Below are positions 3,382-19,896 of a DNA stretch of 64,000 nt, one piece after another (the first letter of the stretch is position 1; every line of letters begins with the position of its first letter). The stretch comes from Bacillota bacterium (GTDB lineage Bacteria; Bacillota; Sulfobacillia; Sulfobacillales; Sulfobacillaceae). A model generated the notes under the pieces. The model saw only the letters and a program-made list of their open reading frames with translations. It was not told the origin of the DNA and made no database searches. A program made the translations under genes and the position numbers. The DNA lies in the NCBI GenBank assembly GCA_021784595.1, contig JAJYHT010000057.1:1-64000 (forward strand). The letters are read 5' to 3'.

Positions 3382-6300
3382 ATGACTTCCCCCTATCAAG
3401 GGCGTATAAAAATTCTGGACACTCCAGAGATTGAGGATCTGTACGGGCGACCGCGGTTCTATCCGGAGGAGCGGACGTATTATTTTGCCCTGACCCCCGA
3501 GGAGCGCGACATCGCCAACAGTTATCGCACCCGGGAAAACCGCATCCTCTTCATTTTGCAGGCTGGTTACTTTAAAGCCAAAACGATGTTTTTCACGTTC
3601 GAGCTGCATGAGGTGCAAGACGACATTCGGTATATTCTGCAGCAACATTTTTCGTTGGTCTCGGAGATCCGATGGCAGGCACCCATCCTCCGGCAAACCC
3701 GGCATGCCCAGCAACAGAAAATCTTAGCGCTGTACGGGTACCGTGCCTGCCAGGAAGCCGAACGCGCTCGTCTGGCAGACCAAGCCCGGCAGATGGTCAA
3801 GGTCTCCGCGAAGCCCCTCTATCTCTTCCAAACCTTGATGCGTTATTTGGAGGCTCAGCGCATTGTCGTGCCAGGATATAGCGTCCTGCAAGATATCGTG
3901 AGTCGCGCGTTGGCTGCGGAGCGTCAGCGGATTACCACCCTGATCGACCGGGCGTTAGACCCGGTGACACGCGCCGCGCTGGATGCGCTGTATGTCAATC
4001 GTGAGGGCGTTTACGCGATTACGGCATTGAAACACGAGCCTAAAGATTTCTCTCTCAAGGAACTTAAACACGAGATCACCCGAAACCAGGCGTTGACAGG
4101 GGTGTACCAGATTGCCTGTACACTGCTATCCGAACTGGGGATCTCGAACGATAGTGTCAGCTACTACGCCGCCCTTGTCGATTACTACACCGTCCAAAAG
4201 CTGCAACAATTGCCCACCGGGATGGTGTATCTCTATTTGCTCTGTTTCATTCGGCACCGCTACCAGAAGTTCCACGACAATCTAATTCACGCCTTGATCT
4301 TTCAGGTGCGCAAGGTGATCGACGCCGCCAAAGTCGCGGCGCAGGAGAAGATTTTGCACACCCAGGCGGACAATCACGACAACCTCCGGCACCTCAGCCA
4401 GATCCTGAACTTGTTCCTTGACGACAGTATTGCGGACGACGTCACGTTCGGGGAAGTCAAACGGCGGGCCTTCACCATTCTGGATCGGGACAGCGTCCAA
4501 CAGCTCTCCCAATCGATGCAGAATCCGTCGGGTCAAGACCGTGTCTGGGAATGGGACTTTATCGCCGCGGGGGCCCCGGCCTTTAAGCAGCACCTCCGAC
4601 CATTGATCATGGCCCTATCTTTTGCCGGGCATCGGGGCGACCAAGCCCTCATTGACGCCGTGGAGTTTTTGAAAACCAGTTTTGACAAAGGACGCAGCCT
4701 GACCCGCTATCGGTTGGATCGCATTCCCCAGGCTTTTATTCCTTCGGGCCTCAAGCCCTACCTCTATGAAGCGGATGATCAGGGCGAAAAGCATCTCCAT
4801 CCGGACAAGTACGAATTCTTGGTGTACCGCCTGTTGCGCAATCATCTGGAAGCCGGCGATGTGTACGTCAGCGATTCCCTGCGGTTCAGAAGCTTTGAAG
4901 AGGACCTCATCCCCCTGTCCACGTGGCAAGAGAACAAAGCCCAAATTTTGCAACAGGTGAAGATCCCCGGTTTAGCGAAGCCCATTCCGAACCTTTTGCA
5001 AGACTTGGAACGGGAACTGGAGGCCCAATATACGGAGGTCAATCGCCGGATCCTATCCGGGGACAACGCGCACATTAAAGTCACGAAACGACGGAACGAC
5101 ATCGCGTGGAGCTTGCCCTACGCCCGCGACGACGATCTCGTCAATCATCCCTTCTTCGAGAGTCTGCCCCAAGTGAATATTGCCGACGTGCTCCACTTCG
5201 TGGATGGGCGCTGCCACTGTTTGGACGCCTTCACCCATATCCTCACGCGTTATGTGAAGTCACCACGGGACCAGCAGGCCATTGTCGCCAGCCTCGTCGC
5301 GTATGGGACCAATGTGGGGCTGGGCAAAATGGGATCCATCTCGGATCTCAATTATCAAACGCTCCATACCGCCGCGAATAACTTCCTCCGCCCGGAAACG
5401 TTGCGCACGGCGAATGATCGGGTGAGCAACGCCATGGCCCAACTCCCGATCTTTCGCCATTACGACATCGATGAAGAGATTCACTCGTCGAGCGATGGCC
5501 AGAAATTCGAGACGCAGTTCTCGACTCTGCGATCGCGGCACTCGCCGAAATATTTCGGCTTGAAGAAAGGGATCGTCCAGTATACATTGGTTGCGAACCA
5601 CGTGCCCATCAATGTCCGCATTTTTGGCGCGAATGATCATGAGAGTCACTACGTCTTCGATGTGCTCTATAACAACACCACAGACATCAAGCCGACCATC
5701 CACTCGACCGATACCCACGGGACCAATCAAGTGAACTTCACCCTCTTGTCGATGTTTGGCTACCAGTTCGCGCCGCGTTATCGGGATCTGCGAGACAAAA
5801 TGGATACCCTCTATGGGTTTAAAAATCCCCGGGAGTATGATGAGAAATTTGTATTGAAACCCACCAGTAAAATCAATACGCGTCTGATTATCGAAGAAGC
5901 AGACAATATCCAGCACATCTTGGCATCGCTCGCGCTCAAAGTGACGAGTCAAAGCGTCATTATCGGCAAGTTGAGCGCTTACGCAAGAAAAAACCGCACC
6001 AAGAAAGCCCTGTGGGAGTTGGACAATATCTATCGCAGTGCGTACTTATTGACCTACGTCGATTCGGTGACCCTGCGCCACAACGTGCAGCGGGCGCTGA
6101 ACCGAGGCGAGTCGTACCATAAGCTGCGGCGCGCCGTCGCGTATGCGTATTCAGGGCGGCTCCGTGTCAAAACGGATCTCGAACAACAAATCTGGAGCGA
6201 GTGCTCACGGCTGCTCGCCAATTGCGTCATCTATTACAATGCCTGCATCCTGTCAGAGTTGCTGAAACGGCAGGAACTCCAGGGACATCAGGAGCAAACG

Positions 6301-6441
6301 GATCAAATCAAACGTGTGAGCCCCGTGAGTTGGAAGCACGTCAATTTTTATGGGAAATATAATTTTTGTGAACCCTCGGAGGGCATTGATCTGACGACGA
6401 TGGTCGATGGGGTGGAAGCGCTGAATAGTGACCGTCAATAG
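3382..6441 (+). CDS. tnpA: Tn3-family transposase
   Basis: A 1019-residue DDE transposase that cuts and joins the 39-bp transposon ends and gives replicative transposition. AGGAGG at 3371-3376 sets the ATG at 3382. The N-terminal third is the DNA-binding part (VSAKPLYLFQTLMRYLEAQR region). The catalytic triad is visible as Asp705 (SSDGQ), Asp777 (STDTHG) and Glu910 (NRGES), each in the usual family motif. The C-terminus has SPVSWKHVNFYGKYNF, matching the family's terminal block. Length is typical, there are no internal stops, and the key residues are present, so it may be active. Confidence 0.96.
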   Translation: MTSPYQGRIKILDTPEIEDLYGRPRFYPEERTYYFALTPEERDIANSYRTRENRILFILQAGYFKAKTMFFTFELHEVQDDIRYILQQHFSLVSEIRWQAPILRQTRHAQQQKILALYGYRACQEAERARLADQARQMVKVSAKPLYLFQTLMRYLEAQRIVVPGYSVLQDIVSRALAAERQRITTLIDRALDPVTRAALDALYVNREGVYAITALKHEPKDFSLKELKHEITRNQALTGVYQIACTLLSELGISNDSVSYYAALVDYYTVQKLQQLPTGMVYLYLLCFIRHRYQKFHDNLIHALIFQVRKVIDAAKVAAQEKILHTQADNHDNLRHLSQILNLFLDDSIADDVTFGEVKRRAFTILDRDSVQQLSQSMQNPSGQDRVWEWDFIAAGAPAFKQHLRPLIMALSFAGHRGDQALIDAVEFLKTSFDKGRSLTRYRLDRIPQAFIPSGLKPYLYEADDQGEKHLHPDKYEFLVYRLLRNHLEAGDVYVSDSLRFRSFEEDLIPLSTWQENKAQILQQVKIPGLAKPIPNLLQDLERELEAQYTEVNRRILSGDNAHIKVTKRRNDIAWSLPYARDDDLVNHPFFESLPQVNIADVLHFVDGRCHCLDAFTHILTRYVKSPRDQQAIVASLVAYGTNVGLGKMGSISDLNYQTLHTAANNFLRPETLRTANDRVSNAMAQLPIFRHYDIDEEIHSSSDGQKFETQFSTLRSRHSPKYFGLKKGIVQYTLVANHVPINVRIFGANDHESHYVFDVLYNNTTDIKPTIHSTDTHGTNQVNFTLLSMFGYQFAPRYRDLRDKMDTLYGFKNPREYDEKFVLKPTSKINTRLIIEEADNIQHILASLALKVTSQSVIIGKLSAYARKNRTKKALWELDNIYRSAYLLTYVDSVTLRHNVQRALNRGESYHKLRRAVAYAYSGRLRVKTDLEQQIWSECSRLLANCVIYYNACILSELLKRQELQGHQEQTDQIKRVSPVSWKHVNFYGKYNFCEPSEGIDLTTMVDGVEALNSDRQ

Positions 6442-9694: not shown

Positions 9695-9931
9695 ATGAGA
9701 GATGTCGGCGCCTATGAAGCCAAGACGCATCTGGCCGAATTTCTCGATGCCGTCGAAAAGGGCGAAACGATCCCTGTGACACGGCGAGGCAAGCCGATTG
9801 CAAAAATTAGCCCCTATCGGGCGCCGTCCATGACGATAGATGCCATTGCCCAAGAGTTTGCTCGCCTGTGATCCACCGTCAAGCCCGGGGAAAGCCTCCG
9901 CGACGTAATCGACGAAGGACGGCGATTTTAA
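9695..9931 (+). pseudogene. Phd/YefM-type antitoxin with in-frame TGA
   Basis: The start has AAGGGGGG ten bases upstream of the ATG. The frame reads MRDVGAYEAKTHLAEFLDAV, then VTRRGKPIAKISPY, the standard N-terminal DNA-binding half of Phd antitoxins. A TGA at 9869-9871 stops it at 58 residues. Beyond it the same frame continues with KPGESLRDVIDEGRRF and stops in a TAATG overlap with the toxin start, which is the usual antitoxin tail and coupling. A CGA-to-TGA change would explain the stop. The truncated product keeps the DNA-binding part but loses the toxin-neutralising tail. Confidence 0.75.
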
Positions 9932-10309
9932 TGGCCTTCGTTCTCGATGCCTCGGTGGCGTTGGCTTGGTGTTTTCCAGACGAGACCAACGCTGGACGAG
10001 ACGGCCATGGTCCCGGCGATTTGGCCGTTGGAAGTTGCGAACGCGCTGGTTGTCGGCGTCCGGCGATCCCGGTTGACCCCCGAGCAATTAGTTCACGCGA
10101 GCCGAATTCTCCGAGAATTGCCGATTGACGTCGATGCATCCCTTGCGAGCCGTGTGTTTGATGCGACGGTGCGATTGGCGACCAGCTATGGGTTAAGTGT
10201 TTACCATGCCGCCTATTTGGAACTCGCGCAGCGGCTGCAATGCCCGCTCGCGACAGGCGACACGCGGTTGGCCACCGCAGCCCAAGCCTGCGGTCTGGAA
10301 TTGATCTAA
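9931..10309 (+). pseudogene. VapC-type PIN-domain toxin, frameshifted
   Basis: The 5' part in one frame gives MAFVLDASVALAWCFPDET, the PIN N-terminus with its first acidic residue. The rest continues in the next frame (open 9947-10309) with VPAIWPLEVANALV, RLTPEQLVHAS, LSVYHAAYLELA and PLATGDTRLATAA, the remaining PIN motifs with catalytic Glu and Asp. Compared with usual VapC proteins about 15 residues are missing at the junction near 9985-10000, so a small deletion shifted the frame. The toxin should be dead, which fits the broken antitoxin before it. Confidence 0.8.
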
Positions 10310-10604: not shown

Positions 10605-11894
10605 TTATCGTCGGTCTGGCGCGCCACGATAGGGAGAAGGCGCTGGGCGGTTGACAAACCATACCCATCCCACCAGGATAGTAAAGAAAAAGTCGCCGAA
10701 TGAGACTCCACCTAAAAATAACGATTCGACCATCTGCTGTGCTAACGTAGCGAGCAACAGAGCCATGATGATGCTGGTATTCCATCGGGTTACTGACCCT
10801 TCGCGTGATAGCCAAAAATCTTGGCCGCTTTTCAGCACAGACCCTACGACGATGACAAGCCATATCATGAGACCCACTATTCCTAGTTCGACGGCAGTGC
10901 GCAGGATGCTGTCATGCGGTGTAAGACCAGCATACGCTCTTGGTACGTAGGGTAAAATGGCTTGTGGAGAATTACCAGGGCCTACCCCAAACAACCACCG
11001 GTGCTGCAATGCCTTAAGGCCTGCGCGCCACAAGATCGTCCGCCCGTTTAGACCCTTATCCCACAGCAAGGTCCAACGCCGGATACCGGTTTTCATCACT
11101 AGCGCCACCGCCGCAATTGGCAAGCCGATTGCCATTCCCAAGAAACCGCGACGTCCAAAGTAGGCTAGCACAAACACGGCCATTCCAATTAGGGATGCTA
11201 TCCAGCCCGAACGAGCATAACTCAGTGCATCGCCGACGATCACAATAATTGCCATCACCGTAGCTGGCCAACGTCCCCCCCACAGCTGGCCGGGGTAAAA
11301 AATCAATCCGAACGCTGCCGGTACCGCAAACGTCATCAGCATACCCAAAGTGTTTTTGTTGGCAAAAGGCCACTGCCAGGCCAAAATGATGCGGTGGCCG
11401 ACTGGTACGGGAAACCCGCTATGGAATATCAGTGCTCCCAGACCAGCCGTCAGCGTCATTAGTACTCCAACAAGGGCCCATGATTGAGCCAGTTTTTGTT
11501 CTGTCACAGAGCCAGAACGGGCAATTTGTGGAAGGTATAGGGTGGCTACCCATAACACTGCGGGAACTCCGAGTGCGTACCGCATGGAGACGCGCAGGTC
11601 AATACCGAAGATGGTGGCAACGATTAGGGCCGCTAAATACAGGGCGACCCACCAAAAATATCGTCGGCTGGTTCGGAGATGAGACAGCCATAGACGCCAA
11701 TTAACCAATTCGGCCGCAAATATGCCGATAAAGACTCCAACCCATGGGCCATATTGACTAACTCCCGGAGAAAATGCATGCAACACTTCCACTAGGACTG
11801 ATGCTAAAATCAGCCACAACCATCCCATGCGAGGTCTAAGAAGTCCTGCCGCCAAACCAAGAAGACTCAATGCCCCGACTACTGCTAACGACAC
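10605..11894 (-). CDS. O-antigen ligase/polymerase family membrane protein
   Basis: A 429-residue protein with about eleven hydrophobic segments along its length. A large loop late in the chain holds the family signature region: GRTILWRAGLKALQHRWLFG, then GPGNSP, and AYAGLTPHDSILRTAVELG. The pattern of an Arg in the loop and a late HDSILR-type motif is that of O-antigen ligase/Wzy-type enzymes (Wzy_C domain), which polymerise or transfer undecaprenyl-linked sugars at the membrane. In a Gram-positive it would serve exopolysaccharide or teichoic-type polymers. The start is GTG at 11894 with GGGAGG upstream. It lies 90 bases after the permease gene on the same strand. Confidence 0.82.
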   Translation of the reverse strand: MSLAVVGALSLLGLAAGLLRPRMGWLWLILASVLVEVLHAFSPGVSQYGPWVGVFIGIFAAELVNWRLWLSHLRTSRRYFWWVALYLAALIVATIFGIDLRVSMRYALGVPAVLWVATLYLPQIARSGSVTEQKLAQSWALVGVLMTLTAGLGALIFHSGFPVPVGHRIILAWQWPFANKNTLGMLMTFAVPAAFGLIFYPGQLWGGRWPATVMAIIVIVGDALSYARSGWIASLIGMAVFVLAYFGRRGFLGMAIGLPIAAVALVMKTGIRRWTLLWDKGLNGRTILWRAGLKALQHRWLFGVGPGNSPQAILPYVPRAYAGLTPHDSILRTAVELGIVGLMIWLVIVVGSVLKSGQDFWLSREGSVTRWNTSIIMALLLATLAQQMVESLFLGGVSFGDFFFTILVGWVWFVNRPAPSPYRGAPDRR

Positions 11895-11984: not shown

Positions 11985-12773
11985 TTATCGGAAATGCAAT
12001 GCTGAAAGGTTCAAATCCATCATATAAAGTGCTACCACAACGATGATCCCGGAAAAGACGTAATTCAACAATCGTTTGTGCCCGCTAAGGCGAGTGGCCA
12101 GATGCGTGCCTAAAAACCCTCCCACCGCGCCGCCTGCCACATATTCAACCACAACCAGCCATGCTACCAGCCCTGACAAGGCATAATTGACCGCTGTGGT
12201 CAGACCAAACGTGCCAACCGAAAACAGTGACGAACCGATGGCCATAATGAGGGGCATGCCGGTAGAGAACACTAACCCGGGCACAATGAGAAATCCTCCT
12301 CCAATGCCAAAGAAGCCCGACACGAATCCTACCGCCAATCCCGCTGGCAACACCCGCCAAAAATCGTGTCGGCTCCATTCATAACCTCCTCCACCGTTGT
12401 CACGGCGCGGACGCAGCATGAGAATGGCCACCACCAGCATGAGAATGGCAAACAAAAACAAAAGGTCTTTGCCATTGACCAGCTTTCCTAAAGAAGACCC
12501 AATAAAATCTCCTAAGATGCCTGGCACGGCAAACCATATGGCGGCTTTCCATCGTATATGCCCGGCTCGCCAATGAGGGTATAGGTTGATATAGGCGTTT
12601 ATCGATACCGCCAACGCAGTGGTTCCAATCACCAAGTGCGGACGGTCCAATCCAACTACATACATCAGCAGCGGTACCGCTAAGATGGACCCGCCTCCCC
12701 CGATCAACCCTAAAGAAAATCCGACGATAACGCCCGAAAAAATGGCCAATCCTGTTTGGATAGGTGTTAGCAC
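11985..12773 (-). CDS. TauE/SafE-family permease (sulfite exporter type)
   Basis: A 262-residue membrane protein with about eight hydrophobic segments in two repeats. It has the duplicated glycine-rich family signatures: GLIGGGGSILAVPLL at the first repeat and GFFGIGGGFLIVPGLVF at the second. The family moves small anions such as sulfite or sulfoacetate; substrate varies and cannot be read from sequence. The start is GTG at 12773 with GAGGAGG at 12782-12788. It follows the candidate selenoprotein by 14 bases and closes the molybdoenzyme operon, which makes sulfite export a reasonable proposal. Confidence 0.85.
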   Translation of the reverse strand: MLTPIQTGLAIFSGVIVGFSLGLIGGGGSILAVPLLMYVVGLDRPHLVIGTTALAVSINAYINLYPHWRAGHIRWKAAIWFAVPGILGDFIGSSLGKLVNGKDLLFLFAILMLVVAILMLRPRRDNGGGGYEWSRHDFWRVLPAGLAVGFVSGFFGIGGGFLIVPGLVFSTGMPLIMAIGSSLFSVGTFGLTTAVNYALSGLVAWLVVVEYVAGGAVGGFLGTHLATRLSGHKRLLNYVFSGIIVVVALYMMDLNLSALHFR

Positions 12774-12787
12774 GTGACAATCCTCCT

Positions 12788-13357
12788 CTATCCATTAATA
12801 TCCCGTAGGGCTTGCGCCACAATCCATTCATTCACAGGAGCCTGCCACAGCACGTGGTTAAGATAGATTTGAGGCGTACGCGTGATCGAGAGTGTAGAGA
12901 TTAGGTCAGGGAATGCCTCTAAACCCAACACTGACACTCGAATATGTTGATTAATCATGGCGCATTCAGAAAACATGCTCACGGCATGCCCACAGTGGCC
13001 TCAGCCCGGCGTGGTCAAAACGGTGACTTGCCGAGTTTCCCGAATTTCTTTTATATCGTTCACCGTCAAAGGCGAGAGTGTCACCTCTCGGGACACTAAA
13101 TGCCGCATGATTTTCATGGCAGCAATCTCAATCTGGCCGGTCGGCCAACCGCCTACAAACCGCACTATAGGATACTGGTCGGCTAGGCTGAAGTCTACGG
13201 CGGACGAGGCGCTCTTCAAAGGCCACGTCGATGGCCCTTCGACAGTACCAGATGTCACGCGGGCACGGACTAGTCCGGTTTCGATCCATTCCTCAAAGAT
13301 TGCCGGATAGGGCTTGTCAAGCCCCCGGATCGTCAGTTCAATTGCTGACCTATTCAC
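12788..13357 (-). CDS. Thioredoxin-fold oxidoreductase, candidate selenoprotein (UGA in frame)
   Basis: Read through one TGA (13003-13001) this is a 189-residue protein resembling the C-terminal half of archaeal-type protein disulfide oxidoreductases. It has YPIVRFVGGWPTGQIE, then VTVLTTPG-U-GHC, LEAFPDL and the cis-proline region SITRTPQIYLN. The family normally has TPTCPYC here, so the TGA (residue 119) replaces exactly the first redox cysteine and Cys122 is kept. No other stop occurs, and 70 family-like codons follow. The start is GTG at 13357, overlapping the upstream gene by 8 bases. A nonsense mutation is the alternative. No selenocysteine machinery is in this window. Likely role: thiol-disulfide exchange tied to the sulfur enzyme operon. 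Confidence 0.75.
12971..12991 (-). promoter_or_regulatory. Candidate bacterial SECIS hairpin
   Basis: Just after the in-frame TGA the mRNA can fold as GGG-CATGC, loop CGTGA, GCATG-TTT: five Watson-Crick pairs extended by three G-U pairs. The loop G lies 18 bases after the TGA, inside the range usual for bacterial SECIS elements. The hairpin is short and was judged by eye only. Confidence 0.5.
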
Positions 13358-14282
13358 GTGTGAGACCTCTTTTCCTTGCAGAGAGCATAAATTGTTCTGC
13401 CACACGCTCGGGATGATGGGCTTTGAGTGCTTCCCATCCGCGCTCCATCATGCGTTCGCGCAGCCTCCCATTGTCCAGTCCTTCCGAAATAGCGTCCGGC
13501 CACACCTCAGGCCGATCGGGTTCTACCATCAACACAGCTCCTTGGCTCATTTGAGCCCCTAGGGAATCTCGCCACATGACCACAGGAAGGCGCGCTGCCA
13601 GCGACTTGAGTGTGTTGGCCGGCAACTCCCCTCCCCGAGTAGGGTCTAGATATAGGTCGGCGCTATGCATAATGGCCGACTCCAAGTCTGGCGCTAGAGG
13701 CGGCGCAAAGATTGCGACACCGGCTAGGTTCAGGCGTTGCACCACGGGTGCCAATTGATCACGAAACTTCAAACCATTTAATAGCACCAATTCCCCTTGT
13801 TGTTTTAACACTTGTTTGGCAGTTGTCAAGAGGGTCGTCAGACCAGCCCCGTCATGGTAATTCCCGCCAAACACCAACCGCGGCCGATGTTCTAAGCGCA
13901 GTTGGGCCGTAACCTCAAATACTGACCCACTATCTTCCGTCTCGTAGAATATTGGGTCAATGGGGTACGGCAGGTATTGCACCGAGTCCGGCCAATCACC
14001 GCTCGATAAGCCGGGGGTGGTGGTGAGAACCAACCGAAATCGGGTAATCGGTGCTTGACCCTCTATGACATGTGTGGTCAATAAAATTTGACCTCGCTGT
14101 CCCCAACCACAGCCTACGGTCAGCGCAGATCCGGCCCGGAATCGGGGAGCCCGCTTGAAACCCTGTCCCAGTCCCTTGGCAAAGACGCCATCGCCCTGTT
14201 CTTGCAACGTGTGGGCAACAGCGACACCGAGGTCCCAATCAAGCGACCCCGGTGAAGTTTGGCTGATGAAATACCAATCCAT
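13350..14282 (-). CDS. Glycosyltransferase-like protein (GT-B fold) in molybdoenzyme operon
   Basis: A 310-residue protein. The C-terminal half resembles GT4-type glycosyltransferases: RPRLVFGGNYHDGAGLTTLL at the start of the nucleotide-sugar domain, LAPDLESAIMHSADLYLDPT, then ELPANTLKSLAARLPVVMW, and a closing helix with AHHPERVAEQFM. The N-terminal half is short for the family. AGGAGA upstream supports the ATG at 14282. It starts 15 bases after the membrane anchor gene and overlaps the selenoprotein candidate by 8 bases, so it is co-translated with a redox system, which is odd for a glycosyltransferase. It may modify an envelope target or have taken on another role. Confidence 0.6.
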   Translation of the reverse strand: MDWYFISQTSPGSLDWDLGVAVAHTLQEQGDGVFAKGLGQGFKRAPRFRAGSALTVGCGWGQRGQILLTTHVIEGQAPITRFRLVLTTTPGLSSGDWPDSVQYLPYPIDPIFYETEDSGSVFEVTAQLRLEHRPRLVFGGNYHDGAGLTTLLTTAKQVLKQQGELVLLNGLKFRDQLAPVVQRLNLAGVAIFAPPLAPDLESAIMHSADLYLDPTRGGELPANTLKSLAARLPVVMWRDSLGAQMSQGAVLMVEPDRPEVWPDAISEGLDNGRLRERMMERGWEALKAHHPERVAEQFMLSARKRGLTRE

Positions 14283-14297
14283 AGCACTCCGGCTCTC

Positions 14298-15302
14298 CTA
14301 TAGATTCCGAAATCGATGAACAAAAGCAGGCGATACACGGTCGGAGGCCACCCGAGAGGCGACTTTTTCCTGGTCCACAAACCACACTTTGGAACTATGG
14401 GTGGCGTCTCCAAAAAACAGCCAGCGTTCCGCAAAAGTGCCCAAAAGCACTGACAGCGCAGCCGTCACCGTTAAAAGAGCTTGCGGACTGCCCGATATGA
14501 TGGCGACCAGGATGGCGGCCGGCAAGATCGCCAAAGCCACCATAGCCACGATATATAAACCTCCTCGCAATGTCGGGGCCAAGTCGGGCCATACTTGAGT
14601 TTGGGTTTGATAAGGTGGCCGGGTGGTGCCCGTATCAATGATGCGATACGGCCCCCGGGGCATTCCAGTTCCGGTTGCCGCATTGAGAGAGCGTCGGGCG
14701 TCTGAGAACAACTTCCACTGTAACAATTTGATTACGGCAATCACGGCGGTCGCCAATAACAAAAAGATGGCTAAGCGGTGAACTGCCGCAATGTCTTGGG
14801 CTATCGCCAAAACGGCCAACATGATGTATCCTCCACTCGTTAACCCCACGGCCATCATGGATAGCACAGTCAATGGAGAGTGCCAGCTACGCATGGCGGG
14901 GATGGTGGCGTACAGCATTGCCGTCACAAACATGGCTACTACGCCAAACAACGCGGCGACAATGGAACCGACCCAAAACCACCATTGATTAACTGGCAGT
15001 ACTAAAGGTCCTAGTGCTACCACACCCAAAACCATGGCATACAATCCGGTAGTTAAGGCTTCCCGACTTAGCCATGATGTTTTCAACCGGCGAAGAATAT
15101 ATTTCCCAGCCTGAGGTCGATGCATGTGAAAAAACGAGGAAATGCCGCCAATGACTGCGATGCCAAAGCTCAACAACAGTGCCCAGGTGATGGCCCTTGC
15201 ATCGGTAGGCAACAGAAAACTGAACGCTGCGGCTGCCAGGGTCAATCCGCCAGACAGTCCCTGCAGTATGGTGATGAGAAGTAATGGCATAGTGGGCCGC
15301 AT
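14298..15302 (-). CDS. DmsC/SoeC-type membrane anchor subunit
   Basis: A 334-residue membrane protein with about eight hydrophobic segments, of the DmsC-like anchor family. Such subunits hold the molybdoenzyme and iron-sulfur subunits on the membrane and exchange electrons with quinone. The early SSFFHMHRP segment, with His and Arg next to a membrane span, is typical of the DmsC quinone region. Its ATG overlaps the stop of the iron-sulfur subunit (TAATG), showing tight coupling. Of the three subunits this is the least conserved, so the choice between DmsC and SoeC rests on the rest of the operon. Confidence 0.8.
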   Translation of the reverse strand: MRPTMPLLLITILQGLSGGLTLAAAAFSFLLPTDARAITWALLLSFGIAVIGGISSFFHMHRPQAGKYILRRLKTSWLSREALTTGLYAMVLGVVALGPLVLPVNQWWFWVGSIVAALFGVVAMFVTAMLYATIPAMRSWHSPLTVLSMMAVGLTSGGYIMLAVLAIAQDIAAVHRLAIFLLLATAVIAVIKLLQWKLFSDARRSLNAATGTGMPRGPYRIIDTGTTRPPYQTQTQVWPDLAPTLRGGLYIVAMVALAILPAAILVAIISGSPQALLTVTAALSVLLGTFAERWLFFGDATHSSKVWFVDQEKVASRVASDRVSPAFVHRFRNL

Positions 15303-15964
15303 TAGTATCGCTCCTCCATAACCCGAAGCACGTCTTTTTCGTCAATAACCACGGGAGCGTGTCGTCGTGGTAAATAGTGTACGGCCGGTCTAGCGCCCAA
15401 TTCCGGCAACAAGGCAAATCCTTGTCGTTGGGCCACCAGTTGCGACACTTCCGAGTCAGGATCGTCAAGATCTCCGAATGTGCGAGCATGGGTGGGACAG
15501 CTTTGCACGCATGCGGGCTGCCGTTCGTAGGATGGCAAGCTCTCATCTTCCAAGCGGTCAACACACATGGTGCACTTTTTCACAACCCCATGCTCCTCAT
15601 CAAACTCTCGCACCCCATAAGGGCAAGCCCACATGCAGAGTTGGCAGCCGATGCAACTGTCGTAATCCACCAGGACTACGCCGTTGTCCTGCCGTTTATA
15701 AGACGCGCCGGTCGGGCACACCGGAACGCAAGGCGCATCGTAACAATGCATGCAGGCCTTGGGCAGATAGAGCACTCCGACGTTGGGATACTCGCCCGCC
15801 TCCATCCCCACAATGCGATTCCACCACATGCCATCGGGATCGCTGTAGGGATCGCTATCGGGGACCGGCCCAAAAGCTCCCGAGGTGTTGTGCTCCTTGC
15901 AGGAAACCTGACAACTTTTGCATCCAACACACTTGTTGAGGTCTGTGATAATCGTCAGTTGCAT
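15302..15964 (-). CDS. Four-cluster ferredoxin-like electron transfer subunit (DmsB/SoeB type)
   Basis: A 220-residue protein with the four cysteine groups of DmsB/PsrB-like subunits: CVGCKSCQVSCKEHN, CMHCYDAPCVPVCPTG, CIGCQLCMWACPYG, and CTMC paired with CVQSCPTHA. These bind four [4Fe-4S] clusters that carry electrons between the molybdenum centre and the membrane anchor. There is no signal peptide, as expected for a partner that is cytoplasmic or moved with the catalytic subunit. AGGAGGAAA precedes the ATG at 15964. It lies 11 bases after the catalytic subunit gene and overlaps the anchor gene by one base. Confidence 0.93.
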   Translation of the reverse strand: MQLTIITDLNKCVGCKSCQVSCKEHNTSGAFGPVPDSDPYSDPDGMWWNRIVGMEAGEYPNVGVLYLPKACMHCYDAPCVPVCPTGASYKRQDNGVVLVDYDSCIGCQLCMWACPYGVREFDEEHGVVKKCTMCVDRLEDESLPSYERQPACVQSCPTHARTFGDLDDPDSEVSQLVAQRQGFALLPELGARPAVHYLPRRHAPVVIDEKDVLRVMEERY

Positions 15965-15975
15965 TGGTTTCCTCC

Positions 15976-18807
15976 TTATCGCGCCATGCCAATGGGCGGT
16001 GTTTTGGTGGTGTATGCCATGTGAGACGTATCAGCTGCGGTAGGATGTATCGGCTCACGCGCTGCCACGGTCGGCCACACTTCGTGAAGTTCGGACGGGT
16101 ACACTTTAACCAAGGTGTCGTACCATCCAGCTTGACCGGTAATGGGGTCATTATTGTACCAGATGCCACTGGGCGACAACGGGATGGTATCGGGGATAAT
16201 GTGGTTTATCAGTACCGCCCGAGTCGCCTCTGGTGCCGACGGATCCAGACCCCAAGAACCAGGTGCTTTGGCAATGGCGTTCCAAGTCCAAACCGTGTGC
16301 GGTTCCACAGCATCGGAAAATCGCAGAGTAGCCGTCATCTTTCCCAAACGGGATTCGATCCATATCCACTGACCGTCGTGGAGACCCAACTGACGCGCCA
16401 TTTGGGGGTTCATAAAGAGCGGATTCTCATTTAGCAACTGCCGTAGCCAAGCGTTTTGGGAACCCCAGGAATGATAGTGGGTCATCGGTCGCTGCGTCAG
16501 TATCTTCAAGGGAAATTCCGCACTTTGGGGAATTTGATCTTCAAAGGGCGCATACCAGGACGGCAATGGATCGAAATAGGTGGCGAGCCGGTCCTGCAGT
16601 TCGGGTGCGGTTGGTTTCTTCCCAGGCCACAATCCTTGCCCTGCGAGTCTAAATGTCTGCATCACCTCTGAATAAAAATTCAGCACTATAGGCTCAGGGT
16701 TGGCTAGGAACTTGGCTGCAGTTGCCCATTCCAAGTAACGTTGATTGGCCATCCGATAATATTTAATATCGTGAGGCAACTCATAAAACCAAAATGCCTT
16801 GTTGTTGGCATAACTTTCCAGTTGTTGCATGTTGGGGGAACCGACAAGAGCTTCTTGGCCTGCCGCACCGCGCCGTCCGGCTAGAATGCCCACGCCTGAT
16901 CCCGGCTCGGTTTCCCACTTTTGCAAGAAGTCGAAGTAGCTGTTGAATTGCCGCACACCATTTTCTACGAATCGAGGCAATGCTAAACGGTTGGCTAATT
17001 CTATCAACACATCGGCTGCGGGCCGCACTCCTGGTGGGGGCTCCACTACCGGTTGGCGAATTGAATCGGCAGGGCCATCAGGTTCGGATATGGGACGATC
17101 CTGAAGGGATGCAGCGTCCCAACGTTCCAGATATGTCGTGTCGGGAAGGACGATGTCGGCAAACGCAACCGTCTCGGAGTCATAGGCATCAATCACCACG
17201 ACATGGGGAATTCGGTATTGGTTCGATGCAGGATCCTTTGCCACCAGCATATCGCGTGTATTTATGGTATTCCAGGTCGAATTCCAGGCCACGTTGGCCA
17301 TGTAAATCATCAAGGTGTCGATGCTGTAAGGCTCTTGGCTGTACGCATTGCGAATCACGTTCTGAATAGTTCCATGCGCTGCCAATGGATATTTCCAAGA
17401 AAAAGCCTCATCTAAGCGTATGGGAATGTCACCCTCTACCAATAAGTCGTCGGGCGAGGTGGGATAGCCTAAAAGCGGCGCTTTAGCGGCCTGATTGGGC
17501 TGATAGTCGGCACGATTGGGTGCTGGCTTGACGCGTGGCGGGATTGGCTTGGGATACGGGGACTTGTAGCGGAATCCTCCTGGGGCGTCTATCGTGCCGA
17601 GCATCATCATCAAGTCGAAGAGACCCCGGATAGATTGAAATCCGTTGGTGTGGGCTGCTAATCCGCGCATCGCGTGAAATGCCACGGGACGCCCAACCGT
17701 CACCGGATGCTGGTCTCCATAGAAATCGGTCCAAGCGATGGGTAACGTGATGGGATGATGCATAGCGGTAATGCCCATTTCCATGCCTAGCCGCACAATA
17801 GTTTTTTTGGGTATTCCGGTAATTTCCTCGGCCCAGGCAGGAGTGGCCTCGGACAAACGGTCCAAAAATATGGCAAAGGCGGGCCTCACCAATTTTCCCT
17901 GGTAGCTGAAGCTCCCTTCTAAAACACCTTGGCCGCGCGCTTGCATAAAGGATACGATCTGGCCATCGGGCAAAGCCACCATGGCATCGCCAGTCTCTGA
18001 TTTTAGAAGCATCCCGTCGGACGCTGTGTTGGGAGACACTTCAACCAGGGCTGGGGCATTGGTGTAGCGCGCAAGGTAGTCCCGGTCATAAAGCCCTTCT
18101 TTATATAGAACGTGCATCAAAGCCAATAAAAAGGCTCCGTCAGTGCCGGGCCGGATAGGGACCCACTCGTCGGCCAAAGCGCCATATCCACTTCGAATGG
18201 GGTTGACCACTATGAAGCGTCCGCCGCGATCCTTCAATGCAGAGATGGCAAGCTTTAATGGGTTGCTAGGATGATCTTCAGCCACTCCAAACATCATGAA
18301 CCAGCGCGCCTTTTCCAAATCTGGCCAGCCAAATTCCCAAAAGCTGCCGCCCACCGAGTACATGCCGCCCGCCGCCATATTTACCGAGCAAAACCCGCCG
18401 TGGGCTGCCCAGTTAGGGGTGCCGAATTGCTTGGCCCAAAAGCCATTGAAGGCTTGCATTTGGTCGCGCCCAGTGAAGTATGCTAATTTCCTGGGATCGG
18501 TTTGACGAATTTCGCGGAGCCATCCTTCGATGGTAGATAAGGCGGTATCCCAGTCAACAGGAACAAACTGCCCCGATCCCCGCTCGGCGCCGGGAGCGCG
18601 CATTAGGGGGGTTGTGAGCCGAGCCGGGCTATACTCCGTCATAATGCCGGCGCCGCCTTTGGCACACCACACTCCTTTGTTCACGGGGCTCTCCGGAATT
18701 CCTGAAATGAAACGCACTCTATTGTTTTCGACAGTCACCTCGATGCCGCAACGACAGGCGCACATATAACATGTGGTGTGCAAACGCTGTGTTTCTTTCG
18801 GCTTCAT
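15976..18807 (-). CDS. Molybdopterin oxidoreductase catalytic subunit (SoeA/DMSO reductase family)
   Basis: A 943-residue protein. The N-terminal [4Fe-4S] site is Cys13, Cys16, Cys20 and Cys48. The likely molybdenum ligand is Cys140 in AHGGFCSVNMAAGG, as in polysulfide, thiosulfate and sulfite enzymes of the family. The C-terminal cofactor domain includes THYHSWGSQNAW and NPQMARQLGLHDGQWIWIES. There is no twin-arginine signal, so it should act in the cytoplasm. That favours a SoeABC-like sulfite dehydrogenase over the exported Psr/Phs reductases. Length fits SoeA. The permease, thiol oxidoreductase and divergent CysL-like regulator agree with sulfur chemistry, but the substrate is inferred. 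The ribosome site is weak. Confidence 0.88.
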   Translation of the reverse strand: MKPKETQRLHTTCYMCACRCGIEVTVENNRVRFISGIPESPVNKGVWCAKGGAGIMTEYSPARLTTPLMRAPGAERGSGQFVPVDWDTALSTIEGWLREIRQTDPRKLAYFTGRDQMQAFNGFWAKQFGTPNWAAHGGFCSVNMAAGGMYSVGGSFWEFGWPDLEKARWFMMFGVAEDHPSNPLKLAISALKDRGGRFIVVNPIRSGYGALADEWVPIRPGTDGAFLLALMHVLYKEGLYDRDYLARYTNAPALVEVSPNTASDGMLLKSETGDAMVALPDGQIVSFMQARGQGVLEGSFSYQGKLVRPAFAIFLDRLSEATPAWAEEITGIPKKTIVRLGMEMGITAMHHPITLPIAWTDFYGDQHPVTVGRPVAFHAMRGLAAHTNGFQSIRGLFDLMMMLGTIDAPGGFRYKSPYPKPIPPRVKPAPNRADYQPNQAAKAPLLGYPTSPDDLLVEGDIPIRLDEAFSWKYPLAAHGTIQNVIRNAYSQEPYSIDTLMIYMANVAWNSTWNTINTRDMLVAKDPASNQYRIPHVVVIDAYDSETVAFADIVLPDTTYLERWDAASLQDRPISEPDGPADSIRQPVVEPPPGVRPAADVLIELANRLALPRFVENGVRQFNSYFDFLQKWETEPGSGVGILAGRRGAAGQEALVGSPNMQQLESYANNKAFWFYELPHDIKYYRMANQRYLEWATAAKFLANPEPIVLNFYSEVMQTFRLAGQGLWPGKKPTAPELQDRLATYFDPLPSWYAPFEDQIPQSAEFPLKILTQRPMTHYHSWGSQNAWLRQLLNENPLFMNPQMARQLGLHDGQWIWIESRLGKMTATLRFSDAVEPHTVWTWNAIAKAPGSWGLDPSAPEATRAVLINHIIPDTIPLSPSGIWYNNDPITGQAGWYDTLVKVYPSELHEVWPTVAAREPIHPTAADTSHMAYTTKTPPIGMAR

Positions 18808-18981: not shown

Positions 18982-19896
18982 ATGAATGAACAAGTTTGGA
19001 GCACATTTAAGACGGTAGCAGAATTAAGCGCCATTTCCAAAGCGGCTCGGCACCTGAATTTATCGCAATCTGCGGTAAGCCAGCAAATCCACCAACTGGA
19101 GGCGGCTTACGATACCACGCTCTTTTTGCGCACCAGCCATGGGGTGCAATTGACCGAAGCGGGTGAAGTGCTTTATCGATTCGTTAGTTCGCTATTGAAA
19201 ACAGTCGACGAGTCACGCCAGGCGCTGAGTGAACTTAAGGCCCATCAACCATTGACATTGGCTATAGGCGCCAGTTTAACGATTGCGGAATACATCTTGC
19301 CGAAATTATTGTCGAGGTATCTTGCCCTGCCCTCACCACCCAGACTTTCCGTCATGATGGCTAATTCACGCGCTATTTTTGACCAGGTGCGGCACGGCGA
19401 AGTCGATATTGGACTTATTGAAGCGAATTTATTTGATCCCCAGCTCATCGTCCGGCCGTTTTTAGATGACCGTCCTTGCGCGGTGATACCGCATTTTCAT
19501 CCTTGGGCGGGCAGGCAAGAGGTTACCCTGCCAGAGTTTTTGGAGCAACCCCTGATTTTACGAGAGCCAGGTTCAGGTACCCGTCAAGCCTTGGAGGAGT
19601 CTTTAAATCATGTCGGGGTTGACCTGCAGAGCCTGAATGTACGCTTAGTATTGGCTACCACACAAGCTATTAAAGCCATGATTATCTCTGGCTTAGGCAT
19701 TAGCATTCTGTCGCCTTTCACCATCCACTCCACGGAAACCCATTTGCTGTTCCCAATTCGAGTGCATGGGCTAAACCTTTATCGCAACTTTTACGTGGTG
19801 CATCGCCGCGATCTCAATTCACGCTTGGCCCACCATTTCATCCAAGCCTTGTTGCAGTCGCGATTTGGTGTGGTTAACAGCGAACGCGGTCTTTAA
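18982..19896 (+). CDS. LysR-family transcriptional regulator (CysL-like)
   Basis: A 304-residue regulator. Residues about 1-60 form the winged helix (FKTVAELSAISKAARHLNLS, then QSAVSQQIHQLEAAYDTTLF), and the rest is the periplasmic-binding-like effector domain (ALSELKAHQPLTLAIGASLT, VDIGLIEAN, REPGSGTRQALEE, SGLGISILSPF). The REPGSGTR motif and layout resemble CysL/YwfK, which in Bacillus activates sulfite reduction genes. It is divergent from the molybdoenzyme operon, so it very likely controls it. The effector is unknown. The ribosome site before the ATG is modest (GGGGTGAATTC). Confidence 0.87.
   Translation: MNEQVWSTFKTVAELSAISKAARHLNLSQSAVSQQIHQLEAAYDTTLFLRTSHGVQLTEAGEVLYRFVSSLLKTVDESRQALSELKAHQPLTLAIGASLTIAEYILPKLLSRYLALPSPPRLSVMMANSRAIFDQVRHGEVDIGLIEANLFDPQLIVRPFLDDRPCAVIPHFHPWAGRQEVTLPEFLEQPLILREPGSGTRQALEESLNHVGVDLQSLNVRLVLATTQAIKAMIISGLGISILSPFTIHSTETHLLFPIRVHGLNLYRNFYVVHRRDLNSRLAHHFIQALLQSRFGVVNSERGL

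Follow-up and report, generated by a model that had tools for sequence, protein, structure and literature searches.

Selenoproteins with a UxxC motif, described as homologs of the AhpF N-terminal domain, were listed as early as 2006, when they were predicted in Carboxydothermus and Symbiobacterium (PMC1794560), and members of the NCBIfam family TIGR02187 (PDO_seleno_TRX) also feature in lists from 2022 and 2026 (PMC9312934, PMC13188914). In Sulfobacillus, a formate dehydrogenase containing selenocysteine (Sec) has been found in all genomes (PMC4378227), and proteome data for S. thermotolerans include the Sec-containing peroxiredoxin PrxU (PMC7409299). These were the only two selenoproteins returned by our search of the literature on Sulfobacillus and selenoproteins, which yielded none on the protein described here. 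The DNA that we analyzed (the window) is a 64,000-nucleotide stretch on contig C19 of genome G000 (3.79 Mb, 97.5% complete), from a member of the Sulfobacillaceae. A first-pass annotation of the window, made from its letters alone, had proposed a new selenoprotein encoded on the minus strand. Its main point, a UGA for Sec at the first redox position of a PDO-like thioredoxin-fold protein, is supported. Its novelty was not borne out, since UxxC proteins of the TIGR02187 type have been listed since 2006 and the same UGA is found in the gene of Sulfobacillus acidophilus and in those of other relatives. The window gene is a divergent new member of a known selenoprotein family rather than the founder of a new one.

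The gene extends on the minus strand from a GTG start at 13357 to a TAG stop at 12790-12788, and is interrupted by a single in-frame TGA at 13003-13001. Reading through this TGA, which is preceded by 118 codons and followed by 70, yields a protein of 189 amino acids (aa) with the redox motif TTPG-U119-GHC122, U119 occupying the first redox position; the cis-Pro, P162, is encoded after the TGA. The features of the locus are as follows.

12788..13357, minus strand: predicted Sec-containing protein disulfide oxidoreductase (PDO)-like gene, 189 aa, two thioredoxin-like domains with a redox motif only in the second
13001..13003, minus strand: in-frame TGA, putative selenocysteine 119 (TTPG-U-GHC); the four congeneric genes all have TGA, other homologues either TGA or a Cys codon
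12992..12994, minus strand: codon of the resolving Cys122 of UGHC, invariant in the alignment
12971..12991, minus strand: candidate bSECIS-type hairpin, 8-bp stem including G-U pairs, loop CGUGA, loop starting 17 nt after the UGA
12872..12874, minus strand: codon of Pro162, cis-Pro position of the thioredoxin fold (RTP), invariant in 25 homologues
11985..12773, minus strand: TauE/SafE-family permease (PF01925, 1.7e-51), 14 nt downstream of the Sec gene, linkage conserved
10605..11894, minus strand: O-antigen ligase/Wzy-like membrane protein, conserved at the locus
13350..14282, minus strand: glycosyltransferase-like gene (PF13692), sharing 8 nt with the Sec gene
14298..15302, minus strand: SoeC/DmsC-like membrane anchor (PF04976)
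15302..15964, minus strand: SoeB-like iron-sulfur subunit (family match)
15976..18807, minus strand: SoeA-like molybdopterin oxidoreductase subunit (family match)
18982..19896, plus strand: divergent LysR-type regulator, conserved at the locus

The GTG of the Sec gene lies within an 8-nt overlap with the stop of the upstream gene (GTGAATAG), and the genes of congeners overlap likewise. Together with the start of TauE 14 nt past the TAG, this means that the read-through frame fills its operon slot. The coupling to the preceding gene and the intactness of the neighboring genes, both claimed in the first-pass annotation, are thus upheld, the flanking ORFs being unbroken.

Comparison with relatives indicates that the TGA is a sense codon. 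The gene was found in three congeners, each of which has TGA at the same codon. Their proteins are 43-46% identical to the window protein, but this identity is unevenly distributed, at 31-32% in the part encoded upstream of the TGA (118 codons) vs 63-66% in the part encoded downstream (70 codons). In this latter part, dN is about 0.26-0.31, with synonymous sites near saturation. When 25 homologues were aligned, the redox column contained TGA in 20, a Cys codon in five, and TAA or TAG in none. The whole reading frame is retained, along with the redox Cys, the cis-Pro, and a C-terminal EW(I/V)xAQ tail. The in-frame UGA is therefore aligned with Cys in homologues, and the UGA and the frame downstream of it are kept in the four congeneric genes. 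A scan of the genome contigs with the window protein alone as the query gave no match. As judged from the alignments, the placement of the TGA is beyond chance, the codon being TGA in all three congeners with the gene and only TGA or Cys across the 25 homologues. The Sec gene and the adjoining glycosyltransferase-like gene (12788-14282) evolve fast (44-54% identity to congeners), whereas the genes around this pair are slower (77-95% for the SoeABC-like and LysR genes, 82% for TauE).

Were the TGA an ordinary stop, the gene would be a pseudogene or would encode merely a 118-residue N-terminal domain. Translation would end there without Sec insertion, the first half of the protein has no Cys, and selA in the window assembly has a nonsense codon (discussed below). 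However, the sequence after the TGA is under stronger purifying selection than that before it, as seen in four lineages whose synonymous sites are near saturation, the frame is kept down to its C-terminal tail together with the redox Cys and the cis-Pro, and TauE starts just behind the TAG of the read-through frame. We consider an ordinary stop very improbable and, on the contrast in conservation before and after the TGA, reject it for the family. Even less credible is that UGA is read as Trp or Cys through a changed code or suppression. UGA is the rarest stop among the long ORFs of the window (8 of 49), yet in congener genome G001 two genes of this operon, those for the glycosyltransferase and DmsC, end in TGA where the window has TAG. 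A changed genetic code was rejected because UGA still ends genes in G001. Moreover, TGA alternates exclusively with Cys codons and only at the redox position, in a genome that has tRNA-Sec, SelB, and SelD.

Sec and Cys versions alternate within the family branch, whose tree requires three Sec/Cys changes. At a locus with the order glycosyltransferase-like gene, PDO gene, TauE, and Wzy-like gene, the PDO is a Sec form in genomes G020 and G029 but a Cys form in G012 and G025. G007 and G016, the two genomes of genus g4 (96-97% complete), have a Cys codon in the redox column and possess neither selA nor a full tRNA-Sec. In G021, the TGA codon is accompanied by a tRNA-Sec with no selA match, maybe because of a gap in this 400-contig draft.

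The relationship to known proteins was assessed using family models, structure prediction, and phylogeny. The window protein matches TIGR02187 with 50.1 bits over residues 63-168 only, which does not reach the curated cut-off of 185 bits, but all 25 branch members match this family (best E 1.2e-22). Pfam gives only weak thioredoxin/glutaredoxin matches. An AlphaFold model of the full-length protein, computed with C in place of U and the 25-sequence alignment, has a mean pLDDT of 92.4, and its best matches in the PDB are the PDOs of Aquifex, Pyrococcus, and Aeropyrum and the AhpF N-terminal domain. It displays a double thioredoxin fold with the C/UxxC motif in the second domain, as expected for TIGR02187. 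The first domain contains no Cys, and no obvious signal peptide was seen in the sequence. In a phylogenetic tree, the window branch is separated from canonical PDOs with full support. Sequence and comparative evidence as a whole leads us to predict, with a probability of about 0.88 that covers selenoprotein status and fold but not function, that UGA 119 specifies Sec in a cytoplasmic selenoprotein with two thioredoxin domains.

Sec insertion in bacteria is directed by a hairpin (bSECIS), and one is found right behind the TGA. Its stem begins 9 nt past the TGA, where GGGCAUGC pairs with GCAUGUUU around the CGUGA loop. According to a published model, a bSECIS has a stem of 4-16 bp closed by a loop of 3-9 nt with a G within its first two positions, a spacing of 16-37 nt, and a minimum free energy at or below -7.5 kcal/mol (PMC13188914). 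With a loop of 5 nt, a stem of 8 bp, the G, a spacing of 17 nt, and -8.0 kcal/mol, the window hairpin falls within all these limits. Taken alone it is not stronger than expected, as 35% of synonymous-codon shuffles reach its energy, and the fold energy of the whole region of the window gene has a z of -0.25. Unlike this energy comparison on a single gene, covariation tested in a fixed register is informative. Across 24 Sec genes, pairing is seen in 91.7% of the cells of six core pairs vs 17-44% when the partner is slid, position 2 of the loop is a G in all 24, and 18 double changes in core pairs were observed vs 4.6 in shuffles, such counts being inflated by the relatedness of the sequences. 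Cys homologues keep three to five of the six core pairs, so the stem follows in part from the coding sequence (protein motif A/H-x-A-V-R); half of the pairs are lost in two of these five homologues.

The window genome encodes a tRNA-Sec with anticodon UCA, selB, and a selD that is itself of the Sec type, with a TGA at the usual KSG-U-GCK place. It also has a second, canonical Sec-PDO gene (G000 C29, L059:6386-7105). A covariance search did not find tRNA-Sec in the draft genomes of congeners G003 and G004. The selA gene (C33:64640-65902, locus L078) is complete except for a single in-frame TAA where G003 and G004 have CAA. The first-pass annotation had named the absence of a Sec machinery from the genome as a refutation of its proposal; selA, selB, selD, and tRNA-Sec(UCA) are all there, but the selA frame is interrupted. 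This nonsense codon is the main reservation for the window strain. Either the base is wrong or the loss is very recent, and in the latter case the strain might no longer be capable of Sec synthesis. The family could be one of true selenoproteins while the gene of this particular strain has just been stranded. In favor of this, a C-to-T change alone separates the TAA from CAA in a selA frame that is otherwise intact, and no other internal stop occurs in selA among 76 selA-bearing relatives. Against this, the TAA could be an assembly or sequencing error, the frame past it exhibits no clear decay, and selB, selD (with its UGA), tRNA-Sec, and the other Sec genes are undecayed. We regard a stranded gene as unlikely, albeit a realistic concern, and retain the reading of UGA 119 as Sec.

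The only matches in a DNA search with the tRNA-Sec of the window genome were 3' fragments in G001 and G016; being partial copies, they were rejected as tRNA genes. These fragments of 72-75 nt (G000 C14:39116-39187 in L004 and L115; G001 C100:4288-4358 in L112; G016 C111 and C219 in L113 and L116) look like the attachment site of an integrative element using tRNA-Sec, and the one in G000 adjoins a 399-aa ORF (L004:1677-2876) that reads like a tyrosine recombinase. Two of them are in G016, itself devoid of selA and of a full tRNA-Sec.

The genes around the PDO gene give some indication of its role. The first-pass annotation had placed it in a sulfur-related cluster, next to a SoeABC-like enzyme and a sulfite-type permease, and both indeed adjoin it in the window. 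Such operons in Sulfobacillus have been read as SoeABC-like, and assignment of the window genes to the SoeA branch rests on that work (PMC4378227). TauE/SafE follows the PDO gene in the window genome, in G004, in four genomes of genus g9, and in G035 from another family, and is found near the branch member of G028; it is absent from beside the PDO gene in G003 and most other genera sampled. The linkage to SoeABC-type genes is confined to the genus of the window, so that this part of the earlier claim does not extend to the wider branch, in which TauE and a glycosyltransferase-like gene are the conserved partners. Glycosyltransferase-like and Wzy-like genes accompany the PDO gene with the same degree of conservation in two genera, for which a role in sulfite metabolism does not account. 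Genes for an MBL-fold hydrolase and a rhodanese precede both the canonical Sec-PDO gene (L059:6386-8479, G000 C29) and the branch member of G028 (L060:6781-8711, C55), in an apparent operon. Because the MBL protein matches glyoxalase II, and a sulfur dioxygenase model more weakly, a role in persulfide metabolism is only suggested. Elsewhere in the window, a PIN-domain (VapC-like) frame at 9868-10309, recognized by eye, is apparently split over two overlapping frames, suggesting a frameshift or an assembly indel, and a 1019-aa ORF at 3382-6441 reads, by eye, like a Tn3-family transposase.

We propose that tRNA-Sec(UCA) and SelB would decode UGA 119 as Sec, with insertion guided by the hairpin right behind it. 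Sec119 and Cys122 of UGHC would form the only redox motif, in the second domain of a protein of the TIGR02187/AhpF-N type, which most likely acts as a selenol/thiol-disulfide exchanger. The fold and the site provide good grounds for such an exchange function. Considering its TauE/SafE and SoeABC neighbors, the substrates could tentatively be disulfides, persulfides, or S-sulfonated thiols around cytoplasmic sulfite. More speculative still, and in our view doubtful, is a dedicated selenium-dependent thiol/disulfide (or S-sulfonate/persulfide) reductase working alongside cytoplasmic sulfite oxidation and export in acidophilic sulfur oxidizers, with Sec and Cys versions alternating at one locus in sister species.

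With these results, a predicted selenoprotein family gains a divergent branch, which the curated NCBIfam cut-off misses, and such genes may consequently be annotated as truncated. They also reveal a natural set of Sec/Cys pairs at one locus in cultivable acidophiles (Sec in S. acidophilus, Cys in S. thermotolerans), with which the advantage of having Sec in a sulfur-handling context can be tested. The divergent branch, its UGHC site, and its gene setting appear to be undescribed in searchable papers.

The closest described system is TIGR02187 itself, with which the window protein shares its fold of two thioredoxin-like domains, the motif in the second, and Sec at the first redox position. It differs by having UGHC instead of UPxC, by its linkage to TauE, and, in its genus, by its linkage to SoeABC. 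The canonical Sec-PDO paralogue (G000 C29) belongs to the same family and has Sec in the same column (TTPTUPYC) and an N-terminal domain without a Cys motif, but it scores 203.6 bits, above the family cut-off, and sits behind MBL-fold and rhodanese genes. The PDOs of P. furiosus (1a8l) and Aquifex (2ayt) and the AhpF N-terminal domain (1zyn) have the same two-domain fold (TM-score of about 0.73 to the model), but are only ∼13-17% identical and have Cys instead of Sec, and the P. furiosus PDO has CxxC in both domains. Finally, protein disulfide isomerase (CGHC) has the same GH between its two redox residues, whereas the window protein has Sec for the first Cys, is bacterial and apparently cytoplasmic, and belongs to another family. 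In protein disulfide isomerase, the GH dipeptide goes with a more oxidizing potential, and the UGHC site is closer to this CGHC than to the CPYC of glutaredoxin.
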